From Armatimonadota bacterium (GTDB lineage Bacteria > Armatimonadota > Zipacnadia > Zipacnadales > JABUFB01), in the NCBI GenBank assembly GCA_013314775.1, contig JABUFB010000007.1, forward strand, positions 62,001-126,000: a stretch of DNA of 64,000 nt. Direction: 5' to 3'. The first letter of the stretch is position 1, and each line of letters starts with the position of its first letter. Below the pieces are notes generated by a model. It was not told where the DNA came from. It saw only the letters and a program-made list of their open reading frames with translations, and did no database searches. A program made the translations under genes and the position numbers. Positions 37,369 through 55,877 of the stretch are shown here, one piece after another.

Positions 37369-37417
37369 CCGCCCACACCGGGCACACAGAGATGAACCAA
37401 TCGTGGGGAGACAACCA

Positions 37418-39517: not shown

Positions 39518-40270
39518 ATGGCTGTGAGATTGCCGGTCTTGGGACTTTTCCTGACATGCCTGTTGGCGGCTACCTCGTTTGTAGTTGCGGACACCCAGAG
39601 CGACACGCCGGCGGCGCCGGCCCAACAGCCTGCAATGAGCGGCCTGAAGATCGCTGTGGTTGACGTGAAGCGCATCAATGACGAGTTCGTCCGGCCTCAG
39701 GCGCGCAACGAAGAGACGGCAAACTGGGCACGGCGCCAGCAGCAGTACATCGACGAACTGCAAAACCGCTACATTTACCTCAGCGAAGAGGCCTTCAACG
39801 AGATCATCCAGATTCTCGGAATGTCGCGGCCACTTCCCGCAGAAGCCGCTAAGCGCCAGCGCGAGCTGCAGGACGTGAATGATAAGACCGAGGCGCGTTT
39901 CCTGGACCTGCAGCGAAAAGTCGACCGGACTGCGGAAGAGCAGGAGGAGTTCAACCGTCTGCAGGCCGGCGTTGATGCGCGCAACAAGCAGGTTGAGCAG
40001 ATCGTCCAAAACCTGCAGAACCAGCTGAACCAGATGCAGATGGACACCATTGACGCCGCCATGGATCGTGCGCAGACCGTGATCGTTGAAGTTGCCACGG
40101 CCGGCGGCTACAGCCTTGTTTTCGCAAAGGCCGCAGTGATTCACGGCGGCGACGACATTACGGACCAAGTGTTGGAAAAGCTTGCCGAGTTGCCGACTGG
40201 GTCCGCGAAAGTTGGTGCGCCGGGTCCGCCTGCAGCAGCACCGGCTCCGGCGCCTGCAGCGACGCCCTGA
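39518..40270 (+). CDS. skp: OmpH/Skp-family periplasmic chaperone
   Basis: A 250-residue secreted protein (signal peptide about 1-24). The strand LKIAVVDVKRINDEF near residue 43 is the OmpH opening, and residues about 60-190 form long charged helices (coiled coil: AAKRQRELQDVNDKTEARFL, EEFNRLQAGVDARNKQVEQI), as in the Skp tentacles. The segment GGYSLVFAKAAVIHGGDDIT near 200 is the conserved C-terminal strand. A Pro/Ala-rich tail follows. Skp family members hold unfolded outer-membrane proteins in the periplasm and hand them to BamA. AAGGAA lies upstream of the ATG. lpxD follows one gene later, the same skp-lpxD neighbourhood seen in proteobacteria. Confidence 0.9.
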   Translation: MAVRLPVLGLFLTCLLAATSFVVADTQSDTPAAPAQQPAMSGLKIAVVDVKRINDEFVRPQARNEETANWARRQQQYIDELQNRYIYLSEEAFNEIIQILGMSRPLPAEAAKRQRELQDVNDKTEARFLDLQRKVDRTAEEQEEFNRLQAGVDARNKQVEQIVQNLQNQLNQMQMDTIDAAMDRAQTVIVEVATAGGYSLVFAKAAVIHGGDDITDQVLEKLAELPTGSAKVGAPGPPAAAPAPAPAATP

Positions 40271-40290: not shown

Positions 40291-41466
40291 ATGGCAAGAC
40301 CGGCTGGAGCCGGGGAATTGCGAAGGTCCAAGCGCACATTGGAATGCATGACCCTGATGAGGCTGACCTGCTGGGCCCCTCGGGGCTTACCGACTGCTAT
40401 CGCGCTGGTCCTGGTGACGGTGGGTGCACAGGTTCCCGCCTGGGGACAGGGGAATCCGCCGGCGGCGGAGCATGTCGGCCATGTGTATCTGGCGCAGCTG
40501 ATGGTCAGGCATCCGCTTTACCCGGACCTTGTGCGACTGGAACGGGCTATCCAGTCGCTTCAGACGCCTGAGCCGGAGATGGTCCTCGAGACGTTCACTG
40601 CCGGAGCGCGCATCGAGGGCGAGTATATAGCAGGCCCTGTGATTTCACGTTGGGCGGTGGAGCGGCTGGTTGCGCGGCGGGACGAAATCGTGACCGGGCT
40701 GTCAACTGTGCTGGATCCCACGCTCGCATCCCTGCCCGAAGACCTGGCTTCCGAATTACAGTGGCGTCGTGATCAGATCCAGCGGGCGGCGAGGCTCGAG
40801 TTGCTCACTGCCCGGGCAGATTCCAGCCGGGAACTGGCCGAAGCCTCGGTGAGACTCTACCGCGAAAACCAGGAGCGCCTGACGAGTCTGGGGGAAGAAC
40901 TCGAGGGTGCTGGGGAGAACCCCGAAGACGTCCGGGCGGAACTGGAAGAGCACCTCGCGCAGATGCGAGCAGAGCACGAGGAACGTCTGGACCGCCTCGA
41001 GCACACCGTCGCGCAGCGGACGCAGGCGGCAATTGCTCAGAGTGAACGTTCCGCCTGGCGTCGGGCGAGAACCCGCCTGCGCAGGCCAACCGGAGGTATC
41101 TCCGAAAGCCTGCGTGAGGGCATGATCGAGACGCTCCAGAGCTTTCCGTTCCCGGACTGGCTCAGTGACGTTTCACTGCAGATCCCGGCGCCGCAACTGC
41201 CCACCGGCGACGTTGCCCGGGACGCGGTCGGGACCGTGGACAGCGCCAGGCAATGCAATAGAGAGCGTCTCGCTGCGGAACTAGTTCGCCGTCGTGCTGT
41301 CATAACTGAAAACATACGCAATGCGACACGCCTCGGCGCGGAACGCATAGCCAGGAAACATGGGGTCCGGCTCCAGTTCTCACCAGTCGGTGATGCGCAG
41401 GGGCCGGACATGACCGAGGAGATCGGCGAAGCCCTGTCAGCTCTCTGGGGCGCCGGTTCCCGGTAG
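40291..41466 (+). CDS. Secreted coiled-coil protein of unknown function between skp and lpxD
   Basis: A 391-residue protein with an extended, basic N-terminus and a hydrophobic signal segment around residues 33-52 (PTAIALVLVTVGAQVPAWGQ). Residues about 65-110 resemble the start of an OmpH-type unit (HVYLAQLMVRHPLYPDLVRL), and about 140-265 are strongly charged and helical (RLYRENQERLTSLGEELEG, EHLAQMRAEHEERLDRL), consistent with a second coiled-coil chaperone, although similarity to Skp is weak. GGGAGA lies six bases before the ATG at 40291; ATG 40348 is an alternative that gives a shorter signal peptide. It starts 20 bases after ompH/skp and 25 bases before lpxD, so it is part of the operon. 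Confidence 0.7.
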   Translation: MARPAGAGELRRSKRTLECMTLMRLTCWAPRGLPTAIALVLVTVGAQVPAWGQGNPPAAEHVGHVYLAQLMVRHPLYPDLVRLERAIQSLQTPEPEMVLETFTAGARIEGEYIAGPVISRWAVERLVARRDEIVTGLSTVLDPTLASLPEDLASELQWRRDQIQRAARLELLTARADSSRELAEASVRLYRENQERLTSLGEELEGAGENPEDVRAELEEHLAQMRAEHEERLDRLEHTVAQRTQAAIAQSERSAWRRARTRLRRPTGGISESLREGMIETLQSFPFPDWLSDVSLQIPAPQLPTGDVARDAVGTVDSARQCNRERLAAELVRRRAVITENIRNATRLGAERIARKHGVRLQFSPVGDAQGPDMTEEIGEALSALWGAGSR

Positions 41467-41491
41467 CAGGTCTATGGGAGGAAACTGAACG

Positions 41492-42544
41492 GTGCAGAAG
41501 GTTGCTATTCCTCTGGCGCGCATCGCCGCCCATGTGGAAGGCACGGTACTCGGAGATGCCGGAACCCTGATCAGCGGTGCGGGCACACTCGAAGAGGCCG
41601 AAGCGGGACACATTGTCTTCGTCGAGCGTCCGGAAATGCTCACGGCGGGCGAGCAGAGCAACGCCTCGGCCCTCATCGTTGCACCGGGGCTGTCCAGCTC
41701 GGCGAAGCCGATTGTGGTCACGGAAGATCCACGCCTCGCCTTCAGCAAGGTTCTAGAGCTCTTCGCGCCCAAGCCCAATGCCCAGCCGGGGGTGCATCCC
41801 ACTGCGGTCCTGGGACGCAATGTCACCTTGGGCGAGCGCGTCTCAATTGGCGCGCACACGGTGATTGGAGACAACGTGATCATCGGGGATGACACCATTA
41901 TTCATCCCCTGGTCTATATTGGGCATGACGCTACTATCGGAAAGTCGACGGAGATTGCCCCGCAGGTCTACATCGGCGACCGCGTGACTGTTGGGGATCG
42001 CACCACGATCCTGGCGGGTGCAGTCATCGGGTGCGATGGTTTCGGCTTCCTCCAGACCGGCCAGGGTCATCGGAAGATCCCGCAGATCGGGACTGTGGCC
42101 ATCGGCAATGACGTCGAGATTGGCGCTTGCAGCACGATTGACCGCGCCACTGTTTCCGTCACCCGCATCGGTGATGGAACGAAGATCGACGACCAGGTGC
42201 ACATTGCCCACAACTGCAATATCGGGCGAAACTGCTTGCTTTGCGGACAGGTGGGAATCGCCGGTAGCACCCGGGTCGGCGACAATGTGGTTATGGGCGG
42301 GCAGGTTGGGGTCAGCGACCATGTGACGATCGGCGACAACGTTGTGGTGGCGGGTAAGTCTGGGGTGTTCGGTGACATCGACAAGCCGGGTGTCTACTCC
42401 GGCTACCCCGCCCGGCCGCACAAGAAACAACTGCGCAATATCGCGATGTCCCATCGTCTGCCGGATCTGGTGGAACAGATCAAGAAGATGGAAGCGCGCA
42501 TCGCGGAACTGGAACAGAAGCTAGCTGAGCGCGAGGGACAATAG
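41492..42544 (+). CDS. lpxD: UDP-3-O-acylglucosamine N-acyltransferase LpxD
   Basis: A 350-residue enzyme that adds the second hydroxyacyl chain in lipid A synthesis. It has a short N-terminal uridine-binding domain (1-100), a left-handed beta-helix built of hexapeptide repeats (NVTLGERVSIGAHTVIGDNV and onward to about 320), and a C-terminal helix (LVEQIKKMEARIAELEQKL). The catalytic His lies in HIAHNCNIG near residue 235, as in E. coli LpxD. The start is GTG with GGGAGGA upstream. Its presence shows the organism makes lipid A, hence an LPS outer membrane. It is the last gene before a hairpin terminator. Confidence 0.95.
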   Translation: MQKVAIPLARIAAHVEGTVLGDAGTLISGAGTLEEAEAGHIVFVERPEMLTAGEQSNASALIVAPGLSSSAKPIVVTEDPRLAFSKVLELFAPKPNAQPGVHPTAVLGRNVTLGERVSIGAHTVIGDNVIIGDDTIIHPLVYIGHDATIGKSTEIAPQVYIGDRVTVGDRTTILAGAVIGCDGFGFLQTGQGHRKIPQIGTVAIGNDVEIGACSTIDRATVSVTRIGDGTKIDDQVHIAHNCNIGRNCLLCGQVGIAGSTRVGDNVVMGGQVGVSDHVTIGDNVVVAGKSGVFGDIDKPGVYSGYPARPHKKQLRNIAMSHRLPDLVEQIKKMEARIAELEQKLAEREGQ

Positions 42545-42574
42545 CGCCCGGGGAGCAGTCCGAAGATCGCCAGA

Positions 42575-42608
42575 GGGCCCGGCACTCCTTACGCCGGGCC
42601 CTTGCTTG
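42575..42608 (+). terminator. Rho-independent-type terminator after lpxD
   Basis: GGGCCCGGC (42575-42583) pairs perfectly with GCCGGGCCC (42593-42601) across a 9-base loop, followed by TTGCTTGT. The T tract is imperfect. It lies between lpxD and the next gene, which starts only about 10 bases later. Confidence 0.6.
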
Positions 42609-42618
42609 TGCAGGGCCT

Positions 42619-43824
42619 GTGAACATGATGCAGTCGATCCTCCTTCTTCTGCTCGCAGCGGCCGCGGCAATACCGGCGTCATCTTACGCCCAGGTTACTA
42701 CGATCGGACCGCTGCCCGTACCGGGGCCGGGGCTTATCGATGCCCTGGACGGCGACCCGCTCCGCTCAGCCTCCCAGGTCATCATTCCCCGTGAGCCGTT
42801 CCATGACGGGCCGGACGGTGGATTGAGCACCTGCGCGCCCGGCGCCGAGCTCATTCGCATACCGAGCGGGTCCTACTTCTCACTCCCCTCGTGGCAGAGC
42901 GTCCGTTTTCGCTCGGGTTCAGCTCCCGGCAGCGATCCTGTTCGGGTCATCCTGAGCAATGATCCCGAGCGCGTGCCGATGCCACGCCTGCTGTCGCGGA
43001 GCCGGCTGCGCGTCGGGGAGCGCACCCATTTCATGTGGCACCATCTGTCCGAATACCCTCAGGGCATGAATCTCGTGGTGCGCCTGCGCAACCAGGGATA
43101 TTCCCCCGCGGTGCTGGATATCGTGGCGGCCCACGGAGGTCCGACGCCCGACGAGATCTGGGCAGGGCATGTGATTATGCGGCGGTTCCTCGGGGGTTGG
43201 CAGGCGGGCCAGGGATTCCAGGTGCGCATTGGGCCGGGGGATGTCTTCGAACTGTCCCGCCGCTGGTTCCCGAAAGGGCACATCGCCGGCGGAATGGCGG
43301 ACCTGTGTCTGCTGGAGGGTTCGGATGTGATCCTGGAGAGCCTGGCCCAGCAAGACTGGCGCTGGTCGCCTTCGCTGGACAGCGTGCGCGCGCTGCTGCC
43401 TAACGCGATCCCGCCTCCGCTCGAGCTCCCTGGTGTCAGGCTCGTCGCGGTTACCCATGAGGTCGGCAAAGCCTGGCAATTCGTCACGATCGGCAAGAAT
43501 ATGGAGTTCAAGGACCACCCGGCCCTCAGGGGCGATTACGGCGTGGTCTACAAGGCGGAAGTCACCTTCGAGAATCCGAACCGGAGGAAGGCGCGTCTTG
43601 AGGTAGCTCTGCGGGCCGGAGGCGGGGTCGCTCGCGGAGCGGTGATCGTGAACGGGAAGATCGTGGAGACGGGCCTGCTGTCGATGGGGATGGAGCACAT
43701 CCTGTTCGATGACAGAGGCTCCACGGCGCCACGCACCCGCGTGCAGGTGCGCCTTATCCCTCAGGCGGGCTCGAACTATCCCGTCAGCCTCGTTGTGCGC
43801 AGTGTTCTGAATCCAACTGGCTGA
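42619..43824 (+). CDS. Secreted protein of unknown function
   Basis: A 401-residue protein with a clear signal peptide (MMQSILLLLLAAAAAIPASS). The rest is beta-rich with no family I recognise. Visible landmarks are a Pro/Gly-rich start (IGPLPVPGPGLIDALDGDP), a central WHHLSEYPQGMNLVVRL strand, and a late PNRRKARLEVALRAGGGVA followed by VIVNGKIVETG, which reads like an immunoglobulin-type or surface-layer-associated fold. GTG at 42619 or ATG at 42625 could start it. It follows the lpxD terminator and is convergent with the kinase gene, so it may be a separate unit. Function unknown. Confidence 0.7.
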   Translation: MNMMQSILLLLLAAAAAIPASSYAQVTTIGPLPVPGPGLIDALDGDPLRSASQVIIPREPFHDGPDGGLSTCAPGAELIRIPSGSYFSLPSWQSVRFRSGSAPGSDPVRVILSNDPERVPMPRLLSRSRLRVGERTHFMWHHLSEYPQGMNLVVRLRNQGYSPAVLDIVAAHGGPTPDEIWAGHVIMRRFLGGWQAGQGFQVRIGPGDVFELSRRWFPKGHIAGGMADLCLLEGSDVILESLAQQDWRWSPSLDSVRALLPNAIPPPLELPGVRLVAVTHEVGKAWQFVTIGKNMEFKDHPALRGDYGVVYKAEVTFENPNRRKARLEVALRAGGGVARGAVIVNGKIVETGLLSMGMEHILFDDRGSTAPRTRVQVRLIPQAGSNYPVSLVVRSVLNPTG

Positions 43825-43833
43825 CCCCCCGCC

Positions 43834-46131
43834 CTACTGGCCCTTGAAGCAGTAGATGCAGCCGTCGTTACTGCCAACGAAGACGTGTCCGGCCGATGCA
43901 GCGGCGGATGACTGCACCTCCCCGCCCGTCTCGTACTGCCAGACGACGGTCTGGCTCTCTGATTCGATGGCATAGAACTGGCGGTCATGGGAACCGCAGT
44001 AGACCACGGTGCCGCTCACCAGCGGCGAACTGTGCACCCAGTCGCCTGTAGGAATGCGCCAGTTGAGAGATCCCGTGCGGGCATCCAGGCAGTAAATATA
44101 GTGATCGCGCGAGCCGATGTAGAGGTTCTCGCCCACGAGGCTCGCCGACGCGTGGATCTCCCCCTCGGTGCGGTACTCCCAGAGCTTCTGGCCCGTGGGC
44201 GCGTCGATGCAGTAGACGTGGTGATCGGTGGAGCCGAAGAAGACGCGCTCTTCTGCGTAGACCGGTGCGCCCAGAACCTCCCCTGCGCTGGTGTACTCCC
44301 AGATCAGCCTGCCCGTGGCGGCATTGATGGCGTACAACCTGTGGTCACTGGAACCGACGTAGACAGTGCCGTTCCAGTAGGCCGGGGATGAGATGATCTC
44401 GCCCTGGGAGCGGAAGGCCCACACCTGCTGGCCGCTGATGGTGTGGATGGCGTAGACGCGGCCATCACAGCTGCCGAAGAAGAGCATGTTTCGCCAGCCG
44501 GCGGGACCGCAGACCACCTCTCCCGCAGTGGTGAACTCCCAGATGCGTCGTCCTGTTCCGGCATCCAGCGCAATCAGGTTGGTCTTGCAGCCGATGAAAA
44601 GCGTGCGGCCGTTGACGATGGCCGGGCTACTCATGATCTCGTGGGCGAATTCAACGCTCCAGATGGCCTTGCCATCACGGGCGCTCAGGGCCGTCACCCG
44701 GCCATTGCGACCCGGCCGGTCCACGAAGGCTCCGGCGAAGACGACTCCGTTTACCACTGCGGGTGAGCTGATGACCCACTCGCCGATGCGCTGCTGCCAG
44801 CGCTTGCGCAAGGGCGGCGCGATGAGCTCCGGCGTGTATCCGCTGCGGGTGACATTGCCCCGAAACATGGGCCAGTTGTAGGCCTTTTGAGGGGCATCGG
44901 GCTTCTGCCGTGCCAGTTCCAGCGCGATCTCGTCCAATAGTGTCCGAGCCTGGGTATGTTCGGGCTCGCGCTGCATGGCCTCGCGCAGGAGGGCCAGGGC
45001 CTGACGCAAGCGGCCTTGCTCACGCTGTTGGATTGCCTGAGCCACCAGTTCGCGCGCCGGTGTGGTCTCGGAAGCCTCTTCCGGTACCGACGGTCGCGCC
45101 GGCGTGGTGCGGTCGCGCTCTATGGAGGTCGGTGCCTGCACCGGTTCGGGGTGCGCAATTGCCCCATATCTGGCGACGTCGAAGGACGCCTTGCAGACCG
45201 GGCAGACGCGATAGTCGTAGCTGGTCATGTACCCGCAGCCCTGACAGTGCTTGATCTCCACGTCTGCGGCGGCATCCTGAACCAGGGGGCGGATGCCCTT
45301 GAGCGCCTCGGACAGGGCCGCGAAGCTCGGGTACCGGTCTGCGCGAGCCTTCGCGATACACATCATGACGACGTCACTCAGCTCAGGCGGAACCTGGGGG
45401 ACCAGTTCGGTCGGTGGCGGCGGCAGCTTGCTCAGGATGCTGTTTATGACCGCGCCGACGGTGTCGCCCGTAACGGGAGCCTTGCCGGTCAGGGCCGCGT
45501 AGAGTGAAGCGCCGAAGGAGAAGACGTCGGAGGTTGCGTCCGCCGAGCCCGCGTCCAGGAACTGTTCGGGCGGCATATACAGGTACGTTCCCAGGCCCAC
45601 GCCGACATCGGTCATTTCACGTCCCTGTCCATAGACCTTGGCGAGACCGAAGTCGGTGACCTTCACCCCCATGCGCTTGTCCAGCATGATATTGGCGGGC
45701 TTCAGGTCTCTGTGGACCACGCCCTTCTGGCCCCGCACCTCAGCGGTGTGCACATAGCACATCGCCTCGCACACCTGCAGGGCGTACTCCATGACTTGCG
45801 GCGGGAAAAGGTTTCTCTCCGTGTCGATAAGCCGCTTGAGATCAGTCCCGTCCACATACTCCAGCCACAGGAAAGGCTGGCCGTTGATGTCGCGGTAGAT
45901 GATGGCCTCCACCACGTGCTGGTGGCGACCGATGTTCATCCACGTCTTGGCCTCCTCACAGAAACGCTCCACCGCACTACGCTCTTCGAGAAGATCCTCC
46001 TTGACCGTCTTGATGGCGAAGCGCTTGTGGCTGAACTCGTCCAGCACGATATAGACGATGCTCATGCCGCCGCGATGCTTCTCCACCACTTTGTACTGGC
46101 CGTCGATCAGCGATGTGAGTTGGAATTCCAT
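43834..46131 (-). CDS. Ser/Thr protein kinase with zinc ribbon, TPR-like helices and eight-bladed PQQ propeller
   Basis: A 765-residue protein. The kinase domain (about 1-265) has the ATP Lys in FAIKTVKE, the catalytic loop HRDLKPANIML and DFGLAK. A zinc-ribbon-like pair CQGCGY...CPVCKASF lies near 300, and a helical TPR-like part (ARELVAQAIQQREQGRLRQA) near 370. Residues about 430-765 form eight PQQ-type blades, each about 40 residues (for example SSPAYWNGTVYVGSSDHRLY then NAATGRLIWEY). No membrane segment separates the kinase from the propeller, so the propeller appears cytoplasmic, unlike the common membrane-anchored kinases with external sensor domains. The start at 46131 is preferred (AGGAA upstream) over a GTG at 46158. 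It lies 60 bases downstream of the heparinase gene. Confidence 0.88.
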   Translation of the reverse strand: MEFQLTSLIDGQYKVVEKHRGGMSIVYIVLDEFSHKRFAIKTVKEDLLEERSAVERFCEEAKTWMNIGRHQHVVEAIIYRDINGQPFLWLEYVDGTDLKRLIDTERNLFPPQVMEYALQVCEAMCYVHTAEVRGQKGVVHRDLKPANIMLDKRMGVKVTDFGLAKVYGQGREMTDVGVGLGTYLYMPPEQFLDAGSADATSDVFSFGASLYAALTGKAPVTGDTVGAVINSILSKLPPPPTELVPQVPPELSDVVMMCIAKARADRYPSFAALSEALKGIRPLVQDAAADVEIKHCQGCGYMTSYDYRVCPVCKASFDVARYGAIAHPEPVQAPTSIERDRTTPARPSVPEEASETTPARELVAQAIQQREQGRLRQALALLREAMQREPEHTQARTLLDEIALELARQKPDAPQKAYNWPMFRGNVTRSGYTPELIAPPLRKRWQQRIGEWVISSPAVVNGVVFAGAFVDRPGRNGRVTALSARDGKAIWSVEFAHEIMSSPAIVNGRTLFIGCKTNLIALDAGTGRRIWEFTTAGEVVCGPAGWRNMLFFGSCDGRVYAIHTISGQQVWAFRSQGEIISSPAYWNGTVYVGSSDHRLYAINAATGRLIWEYTSAGEVLGAPVYAEERVFFGSTDHHVYCIDAPTGQKLWEYRTEGEIHASASLVGENLYIGSRDHYIYCLDARTGSLNWRIPTGDWVHSSPLVSGTVVYCGSHDRQFYAIESESQTVVWQYETGGEVQSSAAASAGHVFVGSNDGCIYCFKGQ

Positions 46132-46191
46132 GGGTACCCGTTCCTGCTGTGATGGCACGTCCCGCAGCCCGGTCGGGATGAGGTGCCGTGG

Positions 46192-49100
46192 TTACTGCCC
46201 TGAGGCACGCTGTCCGGCGATGCGCACCTCACCGTTCCCTGTCACGAGCACTTGCCGCAGTTTGCCATCTACATACCGAAGCAATGCCCCCTGCCCCCGG
46301 AGTTCGAAGTCTTCCGCGGTGAGGGTGCCCCCGCCCGGGTTGACTAACAGGATATCTCGTGTGGACCCGCCAGTCACCTCCACGGCGACAGGTTGCTCAT
46401 TGGGGTCGCCCTCGGCGCGAGCGGTAACCGGGAGCATGCGCACCGACAACTCTGGCGCATCGCCATCGAACACCGCCATGGCCGTCGCGTAGAGCGCCTT
46501 GCGGCCCGTGACGCGGGAGACCACGAAGGGCACTTTGATCTTTGTGGGATTGCCCATGCCGATTGCCGAGAAGAGATGCGCCTGGCCTTCGGCCACATTC
46601 TGGGTCAGCTTGAGCCCCGGACCGCCTTCCTGCCGCCAGATCGCAGCCCAGTCCGAGCCGATGTCGCCCTCGCGCCACTCCTTCGCCCAGTCATAGCCGT
46701 CGCCCGCCGGGGCCTTCTCAAGCGCGGACAGTGCCACCGGGGTCTCCAGGGCGCCGCGGTTGTGGTAGGTCCAGTCAAAGGTTCGTTCATCTTCGCTCTC
46801 GCACAGGACCACATCGATGACCCGGTCACCGATGAGGGCCATAGTCCGACGGAGACGAACGCCGCCGTAAGCCTCGTCAGCCCGGGCGCTGGCCACTGCC
46901 ATGTTGTCGTCCTCGGCGAAGAACTGGAGTGTCCCGGTGCAGGGCTTCTGGCTCTTGCCGTCCACGACCACGGTATTGTGGCTAATGGTCTGGCGGAACC
47001 AGCCGCCATGAGCCGGGTTGCCGTAGGCAATGCAGCCCGGGTCCTCGGCCAGCAGGGCTCCGTGACCGTAGAGGACGAACCCGAGCTTGTCCGGGTGTCC
47101 GTGTCCGCCACCGTGAGGGCCGTAGTCCAGCGCGAGGTAGTTGTGGGGCACGTAGCGGTCCGCACCCTTTTCGCCGGTCTCCCCGGACCGCAAGACCGCA
47201 TAACCGGCGGCAGGGAAAAGCGTGGACTCGAGACGGAAATCCTCTTGCGCGCCCAGCTCCGCGCCGAATAGCAGCGTCTCCAGGCTGTTGCGGCTGCTAT
47301 TGAGTATCGGCAGGAGGTGGCGCGGGTCCTGCCAGCGCGCATAAGCGATCTCGTAGCGGTTCCCACCGCCGAGCGCGTTGGATGTTCCGCTGTCATTGAA
47401 TGCGGGGAGCACACCGCCGGGACCCATGAAAGCCAACGGAGCATCATACATGCTCTTGTAGCGGTCAGTGTAAAGGTCGATGCCGATGTTCCGCGCTGCA
47501 ATTGCCAGGGGCTCCAGGGCCATCATCGTGTAAAAGTGGTACCCCCAGGCGCTCTCGTACCAGAAGCCATCATCGGTGACACCTTTCTCGATCTGCGCCC
47601 GGAAGCCCTTCGGCCCATTGATTGCGTCCCCTGCGAAGCGCTCATCAGAGAGGGCAATGCCCACCAGCCCGTAGGCCGACGCGTGCCAACAGCAGATATT
47701 GTGGATGCCCCACTGGTGATCGTGGATCAGTTCCGCCGCGGGGATCAGCATTTTCGTGGCGATTAGCTCTACGTCTTCGGTGGAAAGGGTGTCATAAATG
47801 CAGTCGAACCCCTGCACCAGGGGGATCAACCAGGTGGATTCGTCTAGAGTCTGGGGCCCGACGTGACCGCCCCCGCGATTGGGCTTGCCGTTGATGTCAT
47901 GCAGCGGGTAGTTCAGGTAGCGTTCGGCGTACCCCAGGAGGATCTCGCGAGCGCGCTCCGCATACTTCCGCTCTCCTGTGAATACATAGACCAGGCCGAG
48001 ATCGCGGATGGCCTGGGATAGAGCATTGTGTTCTCGGTCCAGCACCACGTCATCATACGGCCAGCCGGTGTAGGATGCGCCACAGTCGGGGCAGACGTGC
48101 TCGGTGGGTGACTTTGTGGTGAGCCGGCCGCCGCATTTCTTGCAGGTGTACCAGTGCCACCACTGCCCGCCGCGATCGGGGTATTTGATCTCTCTGGTCA
48201 GCCATGAATCGGCCCGGGCCACCAGGCTCTTGTAGATGCCCTCCGCCTTCGGGTCCTGCCCGACTTTCGCCAGAACTTCGGCGGCCTGCTCGCGGGTGAT
48301 GAGCAAGCATGGATGCTTGACTGTCTTGAGTGGGACCGGCAGAGAGAGGTCGACGGACATGGCGGTATCGTTCGCTCCTGCAGGACTGAAAGAGACCCGG
48401 GTTGTCAGCACGCTCAGCGGAGCGGCAACTTCCGGCCCGGAGACGGCAGTAGAGAGAGTGACCTCCACCTCTGCTGATGTCGCGGGGGCGATTTCCACAC
48501 TTTCGGGCACGTTCACCTGCAGAAGGTCGGCCGTGGCGCTCAGACTGGTGGCGAAGGTTGCGGTCTCCGCGGTGGTGTTCGCAAGCGTGATCCGGTATCC
48601 CAGGCGCAGGCGACCGCCCTCGGTGACGGGCTCCCCTCGCTCCACATTCTTGATGCGCAAGGGGTCGCGCTCCAGGCGGATATTGTCGATGAGCACCGGG
48701 TGAGCTTTGCCGTCGGCGAATTGGGCGCGAAACATGATGACCTGTGACTTCTCGTCCGGCTTCTCCCCCCAGAGCCACTGAGGTGCGCGGAGATTGATCG
48801 TCGCGGTGCGCCACTGGCCGGCCGGAACGTCGCCTTTGGAGGCGATCTGCCAGGTCGCCTGCATACCGTCGCCGAGAGGCCAGTCCACAATCTTGACGCC
48901 CCACCACTCGCAGGTCGTCCCTTCAAGGCGGTAGTCGAAGATGAGGCGGTCCCACTCGCTCATTTCGATACCGCGGCCCGCGAAGTTGAAGTTCACAGCC
49001 TTCGGGCCCGTGCCGGGGTCGGGTTCCCATTCAAGGGCGCCCTCGCCCTGGCTTGCCTGTGCCACGATCTGTGTTTTGCCTCCCCAGCCCGTGAGTTTGC

Positions 49101-49203
49101 CCTCGAAGTCCTCGAGGGACTGCAGCACGGGTGCGGCGGCAGCGATTGACACGGTCAATAGAGCGGTCACGGTTAGCCAGCTATTGAGGCTGAGCTTCAT
49201 CAT
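46192..49203 (-). CDS. Secreted heparinase II/III-like polysaccharide lyase with zinc ribbon
   Basis: A 1003-residue protein with a signal peptide (MMKLSLNSWLTVTALLTVSI). Residues about 25-180 look like a carbohydrate-binding beta sandwich (SLEDFEGKLTGWGG). Residues about 390-700 are the alpha/alpha toroid of the family (ESTWLIPLVQGFDCIYDTL; HQWGIHNICCWHASAYGLVG), and 700 to the end form the beta sandwich with the conserved YGPHGGGHGHPDKLGF active-site strand and its His. A Cys4 zinc-ribbon (CKKCGG...CPDCGAS) is inserted near residues 350-375. The start is set by GGGAG upstream of the ATG at 49203, which overlaps the end of the cyclase gene by 23 bases. It probably cleaves acidic polysaccharides outside the cytoplasm. 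Confidence 0.82.
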   Translation of the reverse strand: MMKLSLNSWLTVTALLTVSIAAAAPVLQSLEDFEGKLTGWGGKTQIVAQASQGEGALEWEPDPGTGPKAVNFNFAGRGIEMSEWDRLIFDYRLEGTTCEWWGVKIVDWPLGDGMQATWQIASKGDVPAGQWRTATINLRAPQWLWGEKPDEKSQVIMFRAQFADGKAHPVLIDNIRLERDPLRIKNVERGEPVTEGGRLRLGYRITLANTTAETATFATSLSATADLLQVNVPESVEIAPATSAEVEVTLSTAVSGPEVAAPLSVLTTRVSFSPAGANDTAMSVDLSLPVPLKTVKHPCLLITREQAAEVLAKVGQDPKAEGIYKSLVARADSWLTREIKYPDRGGQWWHWYTCKKCGGRLTTKSPTEHVCPDCGASYTGWPYDDVVLDREHNALSQAIRDLGLVYVFTGERKYAERAREILLGYAERYLNYPLHDINGKPNRGGGHVGPQTLDESTWLIPLVQGFDCIYDTLSTEDVELIATKMLIPAAELIHDHQWGIHNICCWHASAYGLVGIALSDERFAGDAINGPKGFRAQIEKGVTDDGFWYESAWGYHFYTMMALEPLAIAARNIGIDLYTDRYKSMYDAPLAFMGPGGVLPAFNDSGTSNALGGGNRYEIAYARWQDPRHLLPILNSSRNSLETLLFGAELGAQEDFRLESTLFPAAGYAVLRSGETGEKGADRYVPHNYLALDYGPHGGGHGHPDKLGFVLYGHGALLAEDPGCIAYGNPAHGGWFRQTISHNTVVVDGKSQKPCTGTLQFFAEDDNMAVASARADEAYGGVRLRRTMALIGDRVIDVVLCESEDERTFDWTYHNRGALETPVALSALEKAPAGDGYDWAKEWREGDIGSDWAAIWRQEGGPGLKLTQNVAEGQAHLFSAIGMGNPTKIKVPFVVSRVTGRKALYATAMAVFDGDAPELSVRMLPVTARAEGDPNEQPVAVEVTGGSTRDILLVNPGGGTLTAEDFELRGQGALLRYVDGKLRQVLVTGNGEVRIAGQRASGQ

Positions 49204-51178
49204 GTGCACTCCCGATATCGTTGGCCTGCGGCGTCTCCAGCATGCCGAGAACCTCATACACGCGGTGGGGTTCGTCGATGCCGCGGATCTCCTGCAGGCC
49301 CAGGTCGCGACACTCCACCATGTCGCGCACGAGGTCGTATGTCGCCTCGCTGATGATGATAGAGGCGCCGAGGTCCTTGCACAGTGCCTGCAGGCGGCTG
49401 GCAAGGTTCACATTTTCCCCGATGACAGTATATTGCATGCGGGAACCCGAGCCAACACAGCCGACAATGGACTCCCCTGTGTCAATGCCGATGCCCGCTG
49501 CAAGCTCCGGCATGCCCAGAAAGGCCCATTCGTCCCGCCGACGGGCAATCCGCTGCTGCATGGTCAGTGCGCAGGCCACCGCGAGGCGCGGGTGATCGAC
49601 CTGTTCCACGGGTGCGTTGAAGAACGCCATAATCTCGTCGCCCATGAACTTGTCAAGAGTCCCGCCGAAGCTGAAGATCACCTCGTGCATCAACTCGAAG
49701 TACCTGTTGAGCAGGACCACGGTGCGCTCGGCCCCGAGCCGTCGACTGGCGGCGGTGAACCCGCGCAGGTCCGCGAAGAGCACGGTAACGGTGCGCGTCT
49801 CGCCGACGAACGCCGCATCCGCATCATCTTGGGTCAGCAGCGCTGCAACTTCGGGCGGAACGAACTGCGCGAGGGTGTTCATCAGGGCGCTTTCCTTGCG
49901 CTCCTGGGTGATGACGCGAACCGAGATCGCCGCCAGCAGAGAGAGTACCATCGCCAGAGACGGGACGAACATGGGGGCGATTACGCCGAAGCGGTTGAAG
50001 GCCCAGACTGCCAGGGCGTTGTGCAGGACCAGGCAGGCTGCGGCCACCGGCACGTGGACCCGCGCCCGGGTGGTGGTGACCAGGGCGCCGATGAGCAGTG
50101 TCCAGACCAGTACCGCGAGCAACGTCGCTTCGGGACGCCAGCGACGGATGAACTGCCCGGTCAGGACGGTGTCCAGCGCGTTGGCCTGGACCTCGACTCC
50201 CTTGGCGACCGGCTCGAAAGGGGTGGGGCGCACGTCGTGAAGGCCTATAGCGGTAACTGCGATGAAAACAATCTTGTCCCGGAAAGTGTCTGGCTGAACC
50301 TCGGCACTCCCGGCCAGCAGATCGCCGGCAGATACGTGCGGAAAGGGCTGGCCGGGGCCGGCGAAGTTGATGAGCATCGTCCCCTCGCGTCCGATGGGGA
50401 TGCGTCGCTGGGCCCCGAGTTGCACATGGGAACCCATGCGGACCTGGATCTCTTCAGACGGCACGCCCAATGCACGCGCGGCGACCGAGAGCCATAGTGA
50501 CTGGTAAAGCCCGCCGCCAGCCTGCACAACCGGCGGACTCTCGCGGTAGATGCCGTCCAGCGACGCGATGACATCCACGAAGCCCACGCCTCGCGCAACC
50601 CGGGCGATCTCGGGCAGGGGGCCAATGGCGCCGGTAGCGCTATACAGATGTGAGAAAGCGTTGAGTCCCACGCCCCGACTGATGTTGGTTCTCGGCAGAG
50701 CGAACCGCGCGAGTCCGTCGGTCGCACTCGCCCCGTCCGGCCGGTTCTCCGCACCCGAAAGCAACGCAGCAGCATGCACGGTGCTGCCGTAGTCGCGGCA
50801 GGCGCGCACCAGGGCCTGGTCGGACCGGGCGCCGCCGGGGCCCGGCTCCGCGAGCAAGATGTCGAAGGCGATCACGCGCGCTCCCGCTTCGCGCAGGACC
50901 TCGATGAGCCGGGCGTAACGTTCCCGGGGCCACGGCCAGGGCCCGACGCGCGTCAGACTGTTGTCATCCACGGCGACGATGACGATCTGGTCACTGGAGG
51001 TACGGGCGCCACGGTTGAGAAAACGGGCGTCGATGGTCCTCAGTTCGAATCGCTCCAGGATGTCGCCCGGCGGGGTGAGCGTCCACGCCACGATCAATAG
51101 ACCGACCCCGAGCACAGTAAGCAGGGGCGCGATTGCCTGGTGTCCTGATTGGTTCTCCGGCGCTGTGTCGCGCCTCAT
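49181..51178 (-). CDS. CHASE2-domain class III adenylate/guanylate cyclase
   Basis: A 665-residue membrane signalling protein. A membrane helix at about 18-36 precedes a CHASE2 sensor domain outside the cytoplasm (FELRTIDARFLNRG, IVAVDDNSLTRVGPWPWPRE, FDILLAEPG), then three membrane helices (about 345-430) and a class III cyclase domain (about 470-640). Catalytic residues are visible: metal-binding Asp in LFADLRGFT and FMGDEIMAFF, the purine-reading Lys in LDKFMGD, and the transition-state Asn and Arg in GENVNLASRL. The Asp usual at the second purine-reading position is Glu in GENVN. It is the first gene of an operon with the heparinase and the kinase, and is divergent from the FecR gene. Confidence 0.9.
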   Translation of the reverse strand: MRRDTAPENQSGHQAIAPLLTVLGVGLLIVAWTLTPPGDILERFELRTIDARFLNRGARTSSDQIVIVAVDDNSLTRVGPWPWPRERYARLIEVLREAGARVIAFDILLAEPGPGGARSDQALVRACRDYGSTVHAAALLSGAENRPDGASATDGLARFALPRTNISRGVGLNAFSHLYSATGAIGPLPEIARVARGVGFVDVIASLDGIYRESPPVVQAGGGLYQSLWLSVAARALGVPSEEIQVRMGSHVQLGAQRRIPIGREGTMLINFAGPGQPFPHVSAGDLLAGSAEVQPDTFRDKIVFIAVTAIGLHDVRPTPFEPVAKGVEVQANALDTVLTGQFIRRWRPEATLLAVLVWTLLIGALVTTTRARVHVPVAAACLVLHNALAVWAFNRFGVIAPMFVPSLAMVLSLLAAISVRVITQERKESALMNTLAQFVPPEVAALLTQDDADAAFVGETRTVTVLFADLRGFTAASRRLGAERTVVLLNRYFELMHEVIFSFGGTLDKFMGDEIMAFFNAPVEQVDHPRLAVACALTMQQRIARRRDEWAFLGMPELAAGIGIDTGESIVGCVGSGSRMQYTVIGENVNLASRLQALCKDLGASIIISEATYDLVRDMVECRDLGLQEIRGIDEPHRVYEVLGMLETPQANDIGSAHDEAQPQ

Positions 51179-51246
51179 TGTAGGGCTCCCGCCGATGCTG
51201 TCACGCTCCGGGCGAACATTGTGGGCCCAGAGTGGCGTCGTTTGAA

Positions 51247-51275
51247 TTGCCGCGGCTGCGGGTATCAGTTATGAT
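51247..51275 (+). promoter_or_regulatory. Candidate promoter for the FecR-domain gene
   Basis: TTGCCG at 51247-51252 and TATGAT at 51270-51275 are separated by 17 bases. A start near 51282 would give a leader of about 70 bases that contains the pairing described below. Confidence 0.45.
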
Positions 51276-51300
51276 GCTGACAAGCGAACGCACGTTTCTG

Positions 51301-51357
51301 CGCATATTGGGTTCGTCAAAGCAACACCCAGGAGGGCTGGGTCAAACATCATATGCG
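51301..51357 (+). promoter_or_regulatory. 5' leader pairing that would mask the FecR start codon
   Basis: CGCATAT (51301-51307) is perfectly complementary to ATATGCG (51351-51357), which contains the ATG at 51353. Inside, TGGGT (51308-51312) or TGGGT (51338-51342) can pair with ACCCA (51326-51330), the latter placing the GGAGGG ribosome binding site in the loop. The pairing could regulate translation; chance is not excluded. Confidence 0.3.
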
Positions 51358-52240
51358 AAGAGCGTCCCTTGTACTCATCATAAGCTTGGCGATACTTGCG
51401 GCCATCAGCATGTTTATGCTGGAGTCTCTCCTGGTCGTCCAGCGTGTCGCCGCAATCACGAACCCTACCGGCGCGATCAGTATTCGCCCTCAGGGCAGCA
51501 ATGCCTTCGTGAACCTTGGCGACACGAAACGGGTCATGGCCGGCACCGTCATCAAGACCGGGTCTGATGGCGAGCTTATGCTCAATTGGGTGGACGGGTC
51601 ACGAATCAAGGTGGGCCCGAACACCACCATGCAGGTGCTCAAGTGTCAGGTGAATCGTGCGCGATCCAGCGAGAGCTACCTGTTCAAGCTGGACCTGGGG
51701 CGTGTATGGGTGCGCGTGCTCAAGCGGCTGTCACAGCGGTCGAAGTTCGAGATCAGCACCCCAACCGCGACCGCTGCGGTGCGCGGAACGATCTTCTCGG
51801 TCGCCGTGGCGGAAGACGGGTCCACCAGCGTCTCAGTGCTGCGGGGACAGGTTGACGTCGTGACCGACGAGGGTGATGTTGCGGTCCGGGCCGATCAGAT
51901 AGCGGAAGTCGGCCGCGACGCTACCCCAGCGGTACTTGAGCAGAGCGACGCGGACCAGGCCCAGTGGAAGTCGGTCGCGGATGTGGCCCGGCCCGCGCTG
52001 ACCGTCGACAAGCCCATCGGAGACCGAATGCCCGCGGGGGCCCAGTCTGTTCACGTCAGCGGCACGGCGGAGCGTGGGGCCCAGGTGACCGTCAATGGTC
52101 ATCCGGTGGCCGTGAAGATCAACGGCAGATTCGAGACGGACCTACCACTGCCCCACGGGACGGAGCCGGTACGGATCGAAGTCCGGGCGCGCGATGAGAA
52201 GGGCTTCGAGAGCGTCGTGGTGCGCAAGCTGACTCGGTAA
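51353..52240 (+). CDS. FecR-domain protein with C-terminal Ig-like domain
   Basis: A 295-residue protein with an N-terminal membrane anchor (about 5-30). Residues about 40-165 form the FecR beta domain (LGDTKRVMAGTVIKTGSDGE, GSRIKVGPNTTM, KFEISTPTATAAVRGTIFSV), and about 215-295 an Ig-like domain (AQVTVNGHPVAVKINGRFET). FecR domains outside sigma/TonB contexts often occur near CHASE2 proteins, as here, where the cyclase gene is divergent. The nearest ribosome binding site (GGAGGG at 51331-51336) is about 16 bases from the ATG, unusually far, and no other in-frame start exists. It lacks the N-terminal anti-sigma segment, so it is unlikely to be a classic FecR regulator. Confidence 0.85.
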   Translation: MRRASLVLIISLAILAAISMFMLESLLVVQRVAAITNPTGAISIRPQGSNAFVNLGDTKRVMAGTVIKTGSDGELMLNWVDGSRIKVGPNTTMQVLKCQVNRARSSESYLFKLDLGRVWVRVLKRLSQRSKFEISTPTATAAVRGTIFSVAVAEDGSTSVSVLRGQVDVVTDEGDVAVRADQIAEVGRDATPAVLEQSDADQAQWKSVADVARPALTVDKPIGDRMPAGAQSVHVSGTAERGAQVTVNGHPVAVKINGRFETDLPLPHGTEPVRIEVRARDEKGFESVVVRKLTR

Positions 52241-52294
52241 TCCATCCCAGCCACAGGACCGGCGCGGTCCACCGTCTCGAGCACGGGGGGCGCA

Positions 52295-53377
52295 ATGTTC
52301 CGCCAGATGCGCCGACTTTTGGGCGCGTGCATTTCTTGTTTCATCTTCTGTACTTACCCGGGGCACTGTCAGACCGCTCCGGGTGACCTCGTCGAGATAC
52401 AGGTTCCCGGCGCACACCTCTCGCTTTTCCCCACACCCCAGCAGCCGGTCCAGCTGGTGATCCGTGCCCGCGCCCTGACCCCAGCGGCAATTTCGCTGAG
52501 ATGCCGCGCGGTGATCGACACACCCCCCGGGATGGCCGACTCGGGGTACCGGGTGTCTGATCCGCAGACGCTGGAACTCACTGAACAGGGGGTCTGGCGC
52601 GAGACCGCCCTTGTCTTCTCGTGCTCTCACACATGCGTGGCGATGACCACAGGGAAGCTGGTGATTCGCGGGTCGGCGGGAGATGTTCCAGTTCGGAAAG
52701 ACGTGCCGATCCGACTGGGCCGAGGCGCCCTGGCGTTCCTTGAGCGCCGCTCGGTTCCATACCCCGACGGCGTACGCGCACTGGATGTCACGTGCCTGGA
52801 AAACCCCTTCCTGCGCGCGGAAGTGATTGGGCCGTCCGGGTGCGTCGCGAGCCTGTTCAGCCATGCAGTCGGCCCGGATGCGCTGGTGCCCGGCGATCAC
52901 CCCTTCGGGCTGGTCTGGGCGGGGTTCGACGAGTGGCATCACAGCACCATGCCCCGGCCGGGCGAGGAAGTTGCTGCCGTCTACTCCGGCAGAGCACTGG
53001 GTGGGGTCGCGAACATGACCGTCCGCCTGGCTGGGGACAGCGACTGCCTGGAGGTCACCTGGGACGCGCGCGCACTGCCCGCCTCGCCAGGGCCGATCTA
53101 CCTGGCGACGAGTGTAGTCAAAGGTTCGTCGCTTACAGTGCCGGGGGCGGGAGATGCTACGGCCGGCGAGATTCTGCCCGTTCCCGCCCAGGGCACGGGA
53201 CAAATGCGAGTGGCCCCGGCCGGCGAGGGGCAGGCGCTGGTGGTGGAGTATGCGGCTTCCACGCTGGTGAGCGTCACGGCCGGGTCGCGGCGCCCCTGGT
53301 ACGACTACTTGGCCTTCAATCTCGGGGAAGGGTCGCCGGGTATCGTGACCTTCCGGCTGCGGATCGCGCCGCTGTGA
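52295..53377 (+). CDS. Secreted protein of unknown function downstream of the FecR-domain gene
   Basis: A 360-residue protein with a signal segment near residues 8-25 (LLGACISCFIFCTYPGHC), which has several Cys but no clear lipobox. The remainder is predicted beta-rich, with an Ig-like first part (VQLVIRARALTPAAISLRCR) and a later enzyme-like or carbohydrate-binding part (GLVWAGFDEWHHSTMPRPGE). I do not recognise a family. It starts 54 bases after the FecR-domain gene and ends in a bidirectional hairpin, so both genes probably form one transcript. Confidence 0.65.
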   Translation: MFRQMRRLLGACISCFIFCTYPGHCQTAPGDLVEIQVPGAHLSLFPTPQQPVQLVIRARALTPAAISLRCRAVIDTPPGMADSGYRVSDPQTLELTEQGVWRETALVFSCSHTCVAMTTGKLVIRGSAGDVPVRKDVPIRLGRGALAFLERRSVPYPDGVRALDVTCLENPFLRAEVIGPSGCVASLFSHAVGPDALVPGDHPFGLVWAGFDEWHHSTMPRPGEEVAAVYSGRALGGVANMTVRLAGDSDCLEVTWDARALPASPGPIYLATSVVKGSSLTVPGAGDATAGEILPVPAQGTGQMRVAPAGEGQALVVEYAASTLVSVTAGSRRPWYDYLAFNLGEGSPGIVTFRLRIAPL

Positions 53378-53403
53378 GTTTGTTTGCGTCTCCCGGCAAA
53401 GCG

Positions 53404-53436
53404 AACGGCGCGCCCCTGTGGCAGGAGCGCGCCGTT
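53404..53436. terminator. Hairpin terminator between convergent genes
   Basis: AACGGCGCGC (53404-53413) pairs perfectly with GCGCGCCGTT (53427-53436) across a 13-base loop. It lies between the plus-strand gene ending at 53377 and the minus-strand gene ending at 53471, so it could serve both. T tracts are weak. Confidence 0.55.
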
Positions 53437-53470
53437 ATGGCTTGCGGAGGGTCGTTTCGATGCCGGGGAG

Positions 53471-54844
53471 CTACTGGTCCGGCCCGATGCCCACGAACTG
53501 GGCTGCAAGCTGGACCATCTCCTGGTCCGAAACCTGTGTTACCCGGCCCGATGCGTATTGCTCATCGATGAGTTCCTTGATCTGCTGGACGCCGGGATGA
53601 TCCTTGGATATACGGGCGTCACCCTCCAGCCGATACCAGACATTGATCCACTGGGCAATCCCGGCGAGGCCGGACTTGTCGGTGACCGCAACCCCCGGCG
53701 GACGGTTGAGGATTTTGGCGGTGTCGAAGATGTTGTAGATCTCCTCGTCCTTGTACAGCCCATCGGCGTGGATGCCGGCCTTGGTGACGTTGAAGTTTGC
53801 GCCCACGAAGGGTTGGTTATCCGGGATGCACATGCCGATTTCCCGCGCGAAATAGTCGGCGATCTCGGTGATAACCGACAAGTCCATCCCGTCGTTGGTT
53901 CCCCGCAGGGCGCAGTACTCGATGGCGAGCGCTTCCACCGGGGTGTTGCCGGTGCGCTCTCCGATGCCCAGACAGGTGCCGTTGGCCACGCCGCATCCGT
54001 AGAGCCAGGCAGTGGTAGCGTTGACCAGGCCATTGTAGAAGTCATTGTGCCCGTGCCATTCGAGGCAGTCCGCGGGGACGCCGCCCAGGAAGCGCAGGCC
54101 GTAGATGATCCCGCGGACGCTGCGGGGCAATGCGACGCCCGGATAAGTGACGCCAAAGCCCAAGGTGTCGCAGGCGCGCACCTTGATGGGCGTCTTCGCT
54201 TCCTCGGACAGCTTCATCAATTCGCGCACGAAGGGGATGACGAAGCCGTAGAAGTCGGCCCGGGTTATGTCCTCGAGATGGCAGCGGGGGATGATGCCCT
54301 CCTCCAGAGCCATCTTCACTACCGCCAGGTAGTTGTCCATGGCCTCGGAGCGCTTCATGTTGAGCTTGTGGAAGATGTGGTAGTCGGAGCAGGAGGTGAG
54401 CATCCCGGTTTCCTTGATGCCCAACTCGCGCACAAGCTGGAAGTCCTTGCGAGATGCCCGGATCCAGCTCGTGACTTGCGGGAACTCGTAGCCCCGCTCC
54501 TGGCAAAGCCGGAGAGCTTCGCGATCGCGCTCAGTGTAAACGAAAAATTCGCAGGCCCGGATGATGCCCTTCGGCCCACTCAGGCGGTTGAGCATGTCAT
54601 AGATGGCCACGATCTGCGCAGGTGTGAAAGGCGGCCGGGACTGCTGACCGTCGCGGAAGGTGGTGTCGCTGATATAGATCTGCGCCGGCGGGTTCATCGG
54701 CACCTGGCGATGGTTGAACACGATGCGCGGCACGTCATGGTAGGGGAACACATCCCTGTATAGCTGTGGCTCGTCCACGTCCTGCAACTCGTAGTGGTAG
54801 TATTCCTCCTCCAGGAGATTCGTAGCGGGATTGTAGTGAGGCAT
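53471..54844 (-). CDS. HMGL-family acyltransferase resembling Re-citrate synthase / homocitrate synthase
   Basis: A 457-residue TIM-barrel enzyme of the HMG-CoA lyase/isopropylmalate synthase superfamily, which condenses acetyl-CoA with a keto acid. The signature DTTFRDGQQSRPPFT lies near residue 60, with the catalytic Arg and metal-binding Asp; the metal-binding HxH is in EWHGHNDF near 262. The R-P-P-F-T stretch and the segment TGMLTSCSDYHIFHKLNM are as I remember them from the anaerobic Re-citrate synthase of clostridia rather than LeuA; no LeuA regulatory domain follows. The ATG at 54844 has GGAGGAAGG upstream, which rejects the longer frame to 55003. No leu genes are nearby. Product could be citrate or homocitrate. 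Confidence 0.75.
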   Translation of the reverse strand: MPHYNPATNLLEEEYYHYELQDVDEPQLYRDVFPYHDVPRIVFNHRQVPMNPPAQIYISDTTFRDGQQSRPPFTPAQIVAIYDMLNRLSGPKGIIRACEFFVYTERDREALRLCQERGYEFPQVTSWIRASRKDFQLVRELGIKETGMLTSCSDYHIFHKLNMKRSEAMDNYLAVVKMALEEGIIPRCHLEDITRADFYGFVIPFVRELMKLSEEAKTPIKVRACDTLGFGVTYPGVALPRSVRGIIYGLRFLGGVPADCLEWHGHNDFYNGLVNATTAWLYGCGVANGTCLGIGERTGNTPVEALAIEYCALRGTNDGMDLSVITEIADYFAREIGMCIPDNQPFVGANFNVTKAGIHADGLYKDEEIYNIFDTAKILNRPPGVAVTDKSGLAGIAQWINVWYRLEGDARISKDHPGVQQIKELIDEQYASGRVTQVSDQEMVQLAAQFVGIGPDQ

Positions 54845-55017
54845 GCGCCTTCCTCCAGCCGACGAGATTCGGCCCGGCCAACAGGCGGGCAAAGACGGCA
54901 GGTTGCACAAACGACACCGCGCGAGGGACCTGGTGTGCTTGGTGGGGTCGCTGCTGCAAATGGGCGCCAACCGGAAGCGTAAATGTGTTATAGTACTGGC
55001 CACGCGATATGTGCCGG

Positions 55018-55047
55018 ATTATAGCACGTATACACAGGAGCCTGCAA
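55018..55047 (-). promoter_or_regulatory. Minus-strand promoter for the HMGL-family synthase
   Basis: On the minus strand TTGCAG (55047-55042) and a perfect TATAAT (55023-55018) are 18 bases apart. Transcription would start near 55011, leaving a leader of about 165 bases before the start at 54844. The -35 box overlaps the region just before the divergent gene's ATG at 55053. Confidence 0.6.
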
Positions 55048-55052
55048 AGCAC

Positions 55053-55877
55053 ATGTCTTTCCCGACAACGAATATCGGCGGCATCGAGATCTCTCGACTG
55101 ATGATCGGCAGTAACACTTTCCACGGTTTCTCCCATTTTAGCAGTGCGCGCGATAACTGGCTCCGGCAGCATTTCACACCAGAGCGCATCTACGAGGTCA
55201 TGCGTTACTGCGCCGAACAGGGCCTGAACGCGACCATCGCTATCCAGCGCAAAGACTACAAAGAGATCATGGAGCAGGTCGAGAAAGACACCGGGGTCCA
55301 CATCAACTACATCGCCACACCGGCCGGGGCGACGCTGGATGACCTCAAGCGCGGCGTGGATGAGGCCGCCGATCTTGGTTGCGAGTTCTGCTGGCCCCAC
55401 ACAAGCTGGACCGACGTGCGCGTACTCGCCAGCGAGAACCGCATCCACGAGGGCCCTGAGGCGCTGGAGTACATCCGCAAAAAGGGCATGATCCCCGGTT
55501 GGAGCACCCACCGTCCGGAGACGGTCATCGTGTCGGATCGCGCCGGCTACGACTGCGCCGGTTATGTGCAGATTTTCAACTCCATCGGGTTCCTGTGCGC
55601 CATCGAGACCGACTGGGAGCGCAATATCATCCAGGGAACGCCCAAGCCCGTGGTGAGCATCAAGCCGCTTGGGGCCGGGAGGATCATGCCCCCCACAGGC
55701 CTGGCCTTCGTATACGGTAATATCAAACCCATTGATACGGTGGTCATCGGGATGATGAGCGTCCAGGAAGCCGAGGAGGATATCCGCATTGCGCGGCAGT
55801 GTATCGAGCAGAGCTGGAGGGGGCCGGAAGTCGAACTGCAGTACACGCGCAGCAAGGCGGCACTGAAGAAGGACTGA
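55053..55877 (+). CDS. Aldo/keto reductase-like TIM-barrel protein
   Basis: A 274-residue protein opening IGGIEISRLMIGSNTFHGF, the first barrel strand typical of aldo/keto-reductase-like proteins. Later strands are visible (CEFCWPHTSW, KPVVSIKPLGAGR, IDTVVIGMMSVQEAEEDI), the last being the nucleotide-side loop region. The catalytic Tyr/Lys/His set of true reductases is not clearly present, so it may be a lyase- or isomerase-like relative. The ATG at 55053 is preferred over the extended frame from 54843 because the added sequence is Arg/Lys-rich and lacks strand pattern; AGGAG lies about 11 bases upstream. The rubrerythrin-fusion gene follows within 45 bases. Confidence 0.7.
   Translation: MSFPTTNIGGIEISRLMIGSNTFHGFSHFSSARDNWLRQHFTPERIYEVMRYCAEQGLNATIAIQRKDYKEIMEQVEKDTGVHINYIATPAGATLDDLKRGVDEAADLGCEFCWPHTSWTDVRVLASENRIHEGPEALEYIRKKGMIPGWSTHRPETVIVSDRAGYDCAGYVQIFNSIGFLCAIETDWERNIIQGTPKPVVSIKPLGAGRIMPPTGLAFVYGNIKPIDTVVIGMMSVQEAEEDIRIARQCIEQSWRGPEVELQYTRSKAALKKD

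Follow-up and report, generated by a model that had tools for sequence, protein, structure and literature searches.

We found a FecR/CHASE2-cyclase locus whose FecR-domain gene is preceded by an almost invariant element predicted to be a SigB-type promoter, which is the notable feature here; our literature search, covering sources other than subscription papers, yielded no earlier report of such a combination. The locus lies in the window, i.e., the whole stretch of 64,000 nucleotides analyzed here, and it is probably an ancestral Zipacnadia locus for envelope signaling, made up of FecR, a CHASE2 cyclase that would form cAMP and a kinase and regulated by SigB-type stress, to whose cyclase transcript a lyase was added in particular lineages. 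The assignment to envelope stress is drawn from the neighboring genes and the protein fold only.

The four genes named in a preliminary description of the window, encoding a cyclase, a lyase, a kinase and a divergent FecR-domain protein, are all present with the domains given there, and all exceed the Pfam cut-offs: CHASE2 (206.7 bits) and Guanylate_cyc (68.8 bits) in the cyclase, Hepar_II_III_C (84.1 bits) in the lyase, Pkinase (132.8 bits) and PQQ_2 (212.4 bits) in the kinase, and FecR (59.4 bits) (Table 1). Next to them, the window carries genes in the order tamB-like giant, ECF sigma factor, bamA, skp, coiled coil and lpxD. In the following, G000 denotes the genome of the window, G001 its genus mate, and f1 to f8 the families compared. 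lpxD was found in the same stretch or on a continuation contig at 10 orthologous loci (families f1 to f4), and the FecR-to-kinase block is inverted relative to lpxD in family f1. The 360-amino-acid gene downstream of FecR accompanies FecR within family f1, including the relocated FecR of G003. An Rfam search of the window found no elements.

Table 1. Features of the locus and its surroundings in the window
Feature	Position	Strand	Remarks
bamA	37271-39310	+	Outer-membrane biogenesis neighbor
skp/OmpH	39518-40270	+	Outer-membrane biogenesis neighbor
Coiled-coil gene	40291-41466	+	Outer-membrane biogenesis neighbor
lpxD	41492-42544	+	Outer-membrane biogenesis neighbor
401-aa protein	42619-43824	+	No Pfam match; kept beside the module in families f1-f4
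Kinase-PQQ gene	43834-46131	-	Pkinase and PQQ_2 over Pfam cut-offs
Secreted polysaccharide-lyase-like gene	46192-49200 or 46192-49203	-	Alginate_lyase-like and Hepar_II_III_C regions
CHASE2 class III nucleotide cyclase	49181-51178	-	CHASE2 and Guanylate_cyc over Pfam cut-offs
Predicted SigB/SigF-type promoter for FecR, GTTTGA-N14-GGGTAT	51240-51265	+	Divergent intergenic region; consensus from PMC9847131
FecR-domain gene	51353-52240	+	FecR over Pfam cut-off; divergent from cyclase
360-aa protein	52295-53377	+	No Pfam match; starts 54 nt past FecR

The cyclase consists of an N-terminal helix, the CHASE2 ectodomain, three more helices and a class III catalytic domain that resembles Pseudomonas aeruginosa CyaB and Cya2. 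D470, D514, K510, R595 and T584 are invariant in both alignments, and N591 is conserved in at least 90%; we take D470 and D514 to be the metal-binding aspartates, K510 and T584 the purine selectors, and N591 and R595 the transition-state residues. A Lys/Thr pair in class III cyclases specifies ATP as the substrate. ATP is thus the predicted substrate here, and the enzyme is predicted to be an adenylate cyclase. G000 yielded a single cNMP-binding protein. The closest named cyclases (36 to 45% identity) belong to Candidatus Zipacnadia and other Armatimonadota. The Candidatus Zipacnadia class has been described from marine sediment, and the words cyclase and heparinase are absent from the main text of that description (PMC10290634).

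In its structural model (pLDDT, 91.9), the FecR protein shows one N-terminal helix (residues 2 to 25), a FecR fold like that of BDI_1681 and a glucodextranase-B-like Ig domain, suggesting a membrane-anchored, periplasmic protein. We rejected a classical anti-sigma factor of the FecIRA type, as helix 2-25 takes the place where an N-terminal cytoplasmic anti-sigma domain would be expected; no FecA-type receptor gene was present among the neighbors scanned. In 24 of the 25 genomes that form the rows of the orthologous-cyclase tree, FecR and the orthologous cyclase are divergently oriented; the exception is G003, with FecR on another contig. This bears out the proposal that FecR belongs to the same module. 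Across 61 genomes, 86 of the 150 FecR matches listed fell within 3.5 kb of a listed CHASE2 match, versus about 0.7 expected (150 listed CHASE2 matches plus one from G000; genome size set to 4.5 Mb except for eleven genomes). All three FecR matches of G000 adjoin CHASE2 genes, and FecR lies near the cyclase in about half of 80 named loci across phyla.

The FecR-CHASE2 pairing as such is already published, for Campylobacterota (PMC9239204) and, with histidine kinases, for Burkholderia (PMC5192318). In Campylobacterota, a CHASE2 adenylate cyclase is clustered with FecR as well as with TPR and phosphodiesterase genes, and one pathway has been proposed for them (PMC9239204). Our locus likewise combines a CHASE2 ectodomain and a class III cyclase in one protein with a conserved FecR neighbor, but it differs in the divergent orientation of FecR, the kinase-propeller gene, the predicted SigB-type promoter and the lyase insertion. 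Neither a cAMP phosphodiesterase nor a TPR gene was found among the ten neighboring genes scanned (40291-55877), and because of the missing phosphodiesterase the locus was not classed as a Campylobacterota four-gene cluster. The Burkholderia BiofilmReg operon (response regulator, FecR/LysM, CHASE2 histidine kinase) also places a periplasmic FecR-domain protein beside a CHASE2 sensor; unlike the present locus with its cyclase and Ser/Thr kinase, it employs a histidine kinase with a response regulator and carries LysM on FecR (PMC5192318). In the Sinorhizobium meliloti pathway from NsrA via CyaD1/D2/K to Clr, CHASE2 cyclases similarly relay input from the envelope side through cAMP to a CRP-family regulator, and a FecR-domain protein is among the Clr targets; the partner genes are different there, and SigB-type control is not described in the portions of the two sources considered here (PMC13001267, PMC5498481).

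Upstream of FecR, the hexamer GGGTAW occurred at 20 of 23 loci, compared with 6 to 7% in controls. When a GTTT part was added and spacers from 8 to 25 were allowed, only a spacer of 16 recurred: GTTT-N16-GGGTA was present within 200 nt at 22 of the 23 loci, and the sole match with another spacer in that range was in G002 (spacer 11). Written as GTTTNN-N14-GGGTAN, the element precedes 37 of 38 orthologous FecR genes with upstream sequence, a tally that leaves out G012 (contig edge) and includes G025, whose site lies beyond the 200-nt window; the one gene without it is that of G049, a genome from outside the class with a FecR only 35% identical. A search of both strands of the 38 loci (0.99 Mb) returned 26 matches, 24 of which are the FecR site and 2 lie elsewhere, and none appeared in 100 shuffles of the window. 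The fifth base, left free in the search, is A or G in 35 of 35 distinct sites, and the 14-nt spacer sequence is unconserved (30% mean pairwise identity). The 37 include 13 additional FecR genes, among them those of G003, G013, G008 and G022, where FecR is separated from the cyclase. Paralogous FecR genes (G011, G021, and G000 C8 and C9), which were not counted as orthologs, are without it. The site therefore tracks FecR and not the cyclase. In G022 (L214, G022:C52), a promoter-bearing FecR faces a kinase-propeller gene with no cyclase in between. On the cyclase strand of the divergent regions compared, no conserved element was detected; only 5- to 6-mers resembling coding bias were seen. Among the 80 named loci, a scan that also allowed spacers of 15 to 17 and gave scattered other matches placed the site upstream of FecR only in Zipacnadia/Armatimonadota (L095-L099, L105 and L126).

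The Bacillus subtilis SigB consensus is GTTTAA-N14-GGGTAT (PMC9847131). With a GTTTAA-like and a GGGTAT-like box separated by 14 nt (12 to 17 allowed), the FecR element has the makeup of a SigB/SigF-type promoter, and it would be recognized by SigB, as judged from its sequence. A SigB/F/G factor over the cut-off is encoded in 23 of the 24 first-set genomes, the exception being G033, which is 59% complete. G000 has one such factor (G000:C9; TIGR02980, 273.7 bits versus 234.35), encoded in a contiguous, overlapping STAS-HATPase (RsbW-like)-sigma cassette (L198:6999-8637) of the rsbV-rsbW-sigB type; HATPase_c_2 and STAS are over the cut-off, and the RsbW equivalog cut-offs were missed (122.9 versus 145). 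Promoter and cassette thus resemble those of the B. subtilis general stress regulon (PMC9847131), with the difference that the genome here has outer-membrane genes and that the conserved target is a FecR gene belonging to a cyclase locus.

Genome-wide, G000 contains 12 sites versus 4 for a reversed control pattern, so some of the 12 are chance matches. One site (GTTTGA-N14-GGGTAT) lies about 30 nt before the ORF start of an hsp20 gene (L202:2711-3231, G000:C6), which is likely a second SigB target, judging by that match. Another, GTTTCT-N14-GGGTAA at L199:10628 (G000:C9), stands about 190 nt upstream of a 1,033-aa ORF followed on the same strand by a CHASE2 cyclase and FecR; it may be a chance match, since its fifth base is C. 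In several genomes, the -35 box almost reaches the start of the cyclase, so the divergent promoters may overlap and be in competition. This position, together with the few sites genome-wide, would also suit a reading in which GTTTR-N15-GGGTA is the binding site of a local regulator and not a sigma-factor promoter. We consider that reading quite improbable, given the agreement with the SigB consensus down to the 14-nt spacer (PMC9847131), the sigB cassette in G000, the identical element type before hsp20 and the persistence of the element with FecR when the cyclase is elsewhere. The literature search, which covered sources other than subscription papers, turned up no FecR/CHASE2 locus with a SigB-type promoter and no cyclase-lyase operon.

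A signal peptide was recognized by eye in the lyase, whose closest relatives of known structure are PL17 alginate lyases. Neither heparin nor alginate can be assigned as its substrate: the protein scored 20 bits against the cut-off of 600 for the HepC (heparin-sulfate lyase) NCBIfam equivalog, and 123.3 bits against the cut-off of 1400 for the PL17 oligoalginate lyase equivalog. "Heparinase," the term used in the preliminary description, is a family name and says nothing on the substrate. The lyase also holds a Cys4 motif (CxxC-x13-CxxC) that is kept in most orthologs; in G057, only two of the cysteines are left. Its start consists of consecutive ATG codons at 49203 and 49200, so the 23-nt overlap with the cyclase first described is real but amounts to 23 or 20 nt depending on the start, and 20 nt is likelier because G001 retains the second ATG alone. 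The overlap is 20 nt in G001 and 4 nt in G009, and the genes are about 1 nt apart in G002 and about 100 nt or more apart in G003. Two candidate sigma-70 promoters lie in the cyclase gene upstream of the lyase; G001 preserves that at 49455-49427, which falls inside conserved coding sequence, but not that at 49656-49629.

The pairing of cyclase and lyase is restricted. Among 291 genomes of the phylum, a lyase match was obtained in 45 (at E 1e-110) and a cyclase match in 53 (at E 1e-60), and the two genes adjoin in five only, namely, G000, G001, G002, G003 and G009; this survey scored the best two and then the best four candidates per genome, so lyase paralogs beside other cyclases could escape it. 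Among the 80 named loci, the lyase stands beside the cyclase only in L099 (Armatimonadota; the same match as G009), and L126 has a lyase paralog about 5 kb from the cyclase. On the cyclase tree (L056, matching in the catalytic domain only, left out), lyase adjacency needs two changes, which are forced by well-supported branches since G009 is sister to G004, where the kinase directly follows the cyclase. The lyase tree (fragments L071 and L072 left out) sets the G009 copy apart from the f1 copies, which are mixed with copies located elsewhere in f5, f7 and f8. This pattern may stem from two insertions at a single position or from an old arrangement with many later losses; on both histories, a lineage-specific link is favored over a general one. 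An ancient cyclase-lyase-kinase operon was rejected on this tree and on the unconserved order (5/291 genomes). The trio order anticipated in other genomes thus does not extend beyond family f1 and G009, whereas the FecR-cyclase(-kinase) order is kept.

How the lyase came to lie there can be read in other ways. It may be a passenger that inserted by chance behind an existing promoter and has no functional tie to the cyclase, as might be expected from the 31 Hepar_II_III_C matches of G000, mostly located elsewhere, and from close orthologs at unrelated sites in G007, G012, G041 and G042; that all four f1 genomes, from three genera, keep it next to the cyclase and that it recurs there in G009 makes this somewhat unlikely in our view. 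Less likely still is the idea of a polysaccharide module, with the CHASE2 cyclase as sensor for a polymer or a lyase product and the lyase as the enzyme that cuts the polymer. The overlapping or abutting junctions in G000, G001, G009 and G002 speak for it, as does the fact that, on the cyclase tree, one lyase family came to occupy this position on two separate occasions. However, the pair is missing from 286 of the 291 genomes, many of which retain FecR-cyclase, the many Hepar_II_III_C genes outside the locus argue against it, and so does the gap in G003. Hence, the proposed link between polysaccharide sensing and degradation finds partial support from the pair itself but is not supported as the conserved purpose of the locus, given the absence of the lyase from most relatives, the frequent location in an outer-membrane-biogenesis neighborhood and the predicted SigB/SigF-type FecR promoter.

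The kinase is a recurrent, though not obligatory, partner. It comprises a Ser/Thr kinase domain with the motifs HRDLKPAN and DFG (read from the sequence), a Cys4 zinc-ribbon-like linker, a TPR-like stretch and a C-terminal PQQ/BamB-type beta-propeller, and in the window it starts 60 nt past the lyase stop, as first described, provided that ATG 46131 is its start. An ortholog is present in 29 of 61 genomes, with one match per genome. It comes directly after the cyclase in G004, G006, G007, G010, G016, G028 and G025 (cut by the contig end) and after the lyase in G000, G002 and G003. In G042 and in those f6 genomes where both genes exist, kinase and cyclase sit on different contigs.

In the probable reading as an ancestral envelope-signaling locus, stress would free SigB, and FecR would then be made from the SigB/SigF-type promoter. 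Periplasmic FecR would engage the CHASE2 ectodomain and thereby change cAMP, to which the kinase, the one cNMP-binding regulator or both would respond, with the kinase as a cytoplasmic arm acting either in parallel or downstream. The lyase gene would have been inserted directly after the cyclase in f1 and, separately, in G009, to be made from the cyclase transcript as a secreted output. It counts against this reading that the predicted promoter directs FecR, not the cyclase. More tentatively, and with rather less than an even chance of being correct, a SigB/RsbW-type stress system might control the CHASE2 cAMP sensor through the supply of periplasmic FecR, joining a sigma factor, cAMP and a Ser/Thr kinase at one envelope-biogenesis locus of an outer-membrane-bearing phylum, where the lyase would have joined the cyclase transcript on two occasions to serve as an output.

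Identification of the ancient unit corrects a plausible but local reading as a polysaccharide operon. Across many phyla, CHASE2 sensors repeatedly have FecR-domain proteins as neighbors, and the ligands of CHASE2 are mostly unknown. The near-invariant stress-type promoter before FecR suggests that the sensor may be set by the level of FecR as well as by a ligand, and this promoter offers a directly testable handle on the function of the CHASE2 module.
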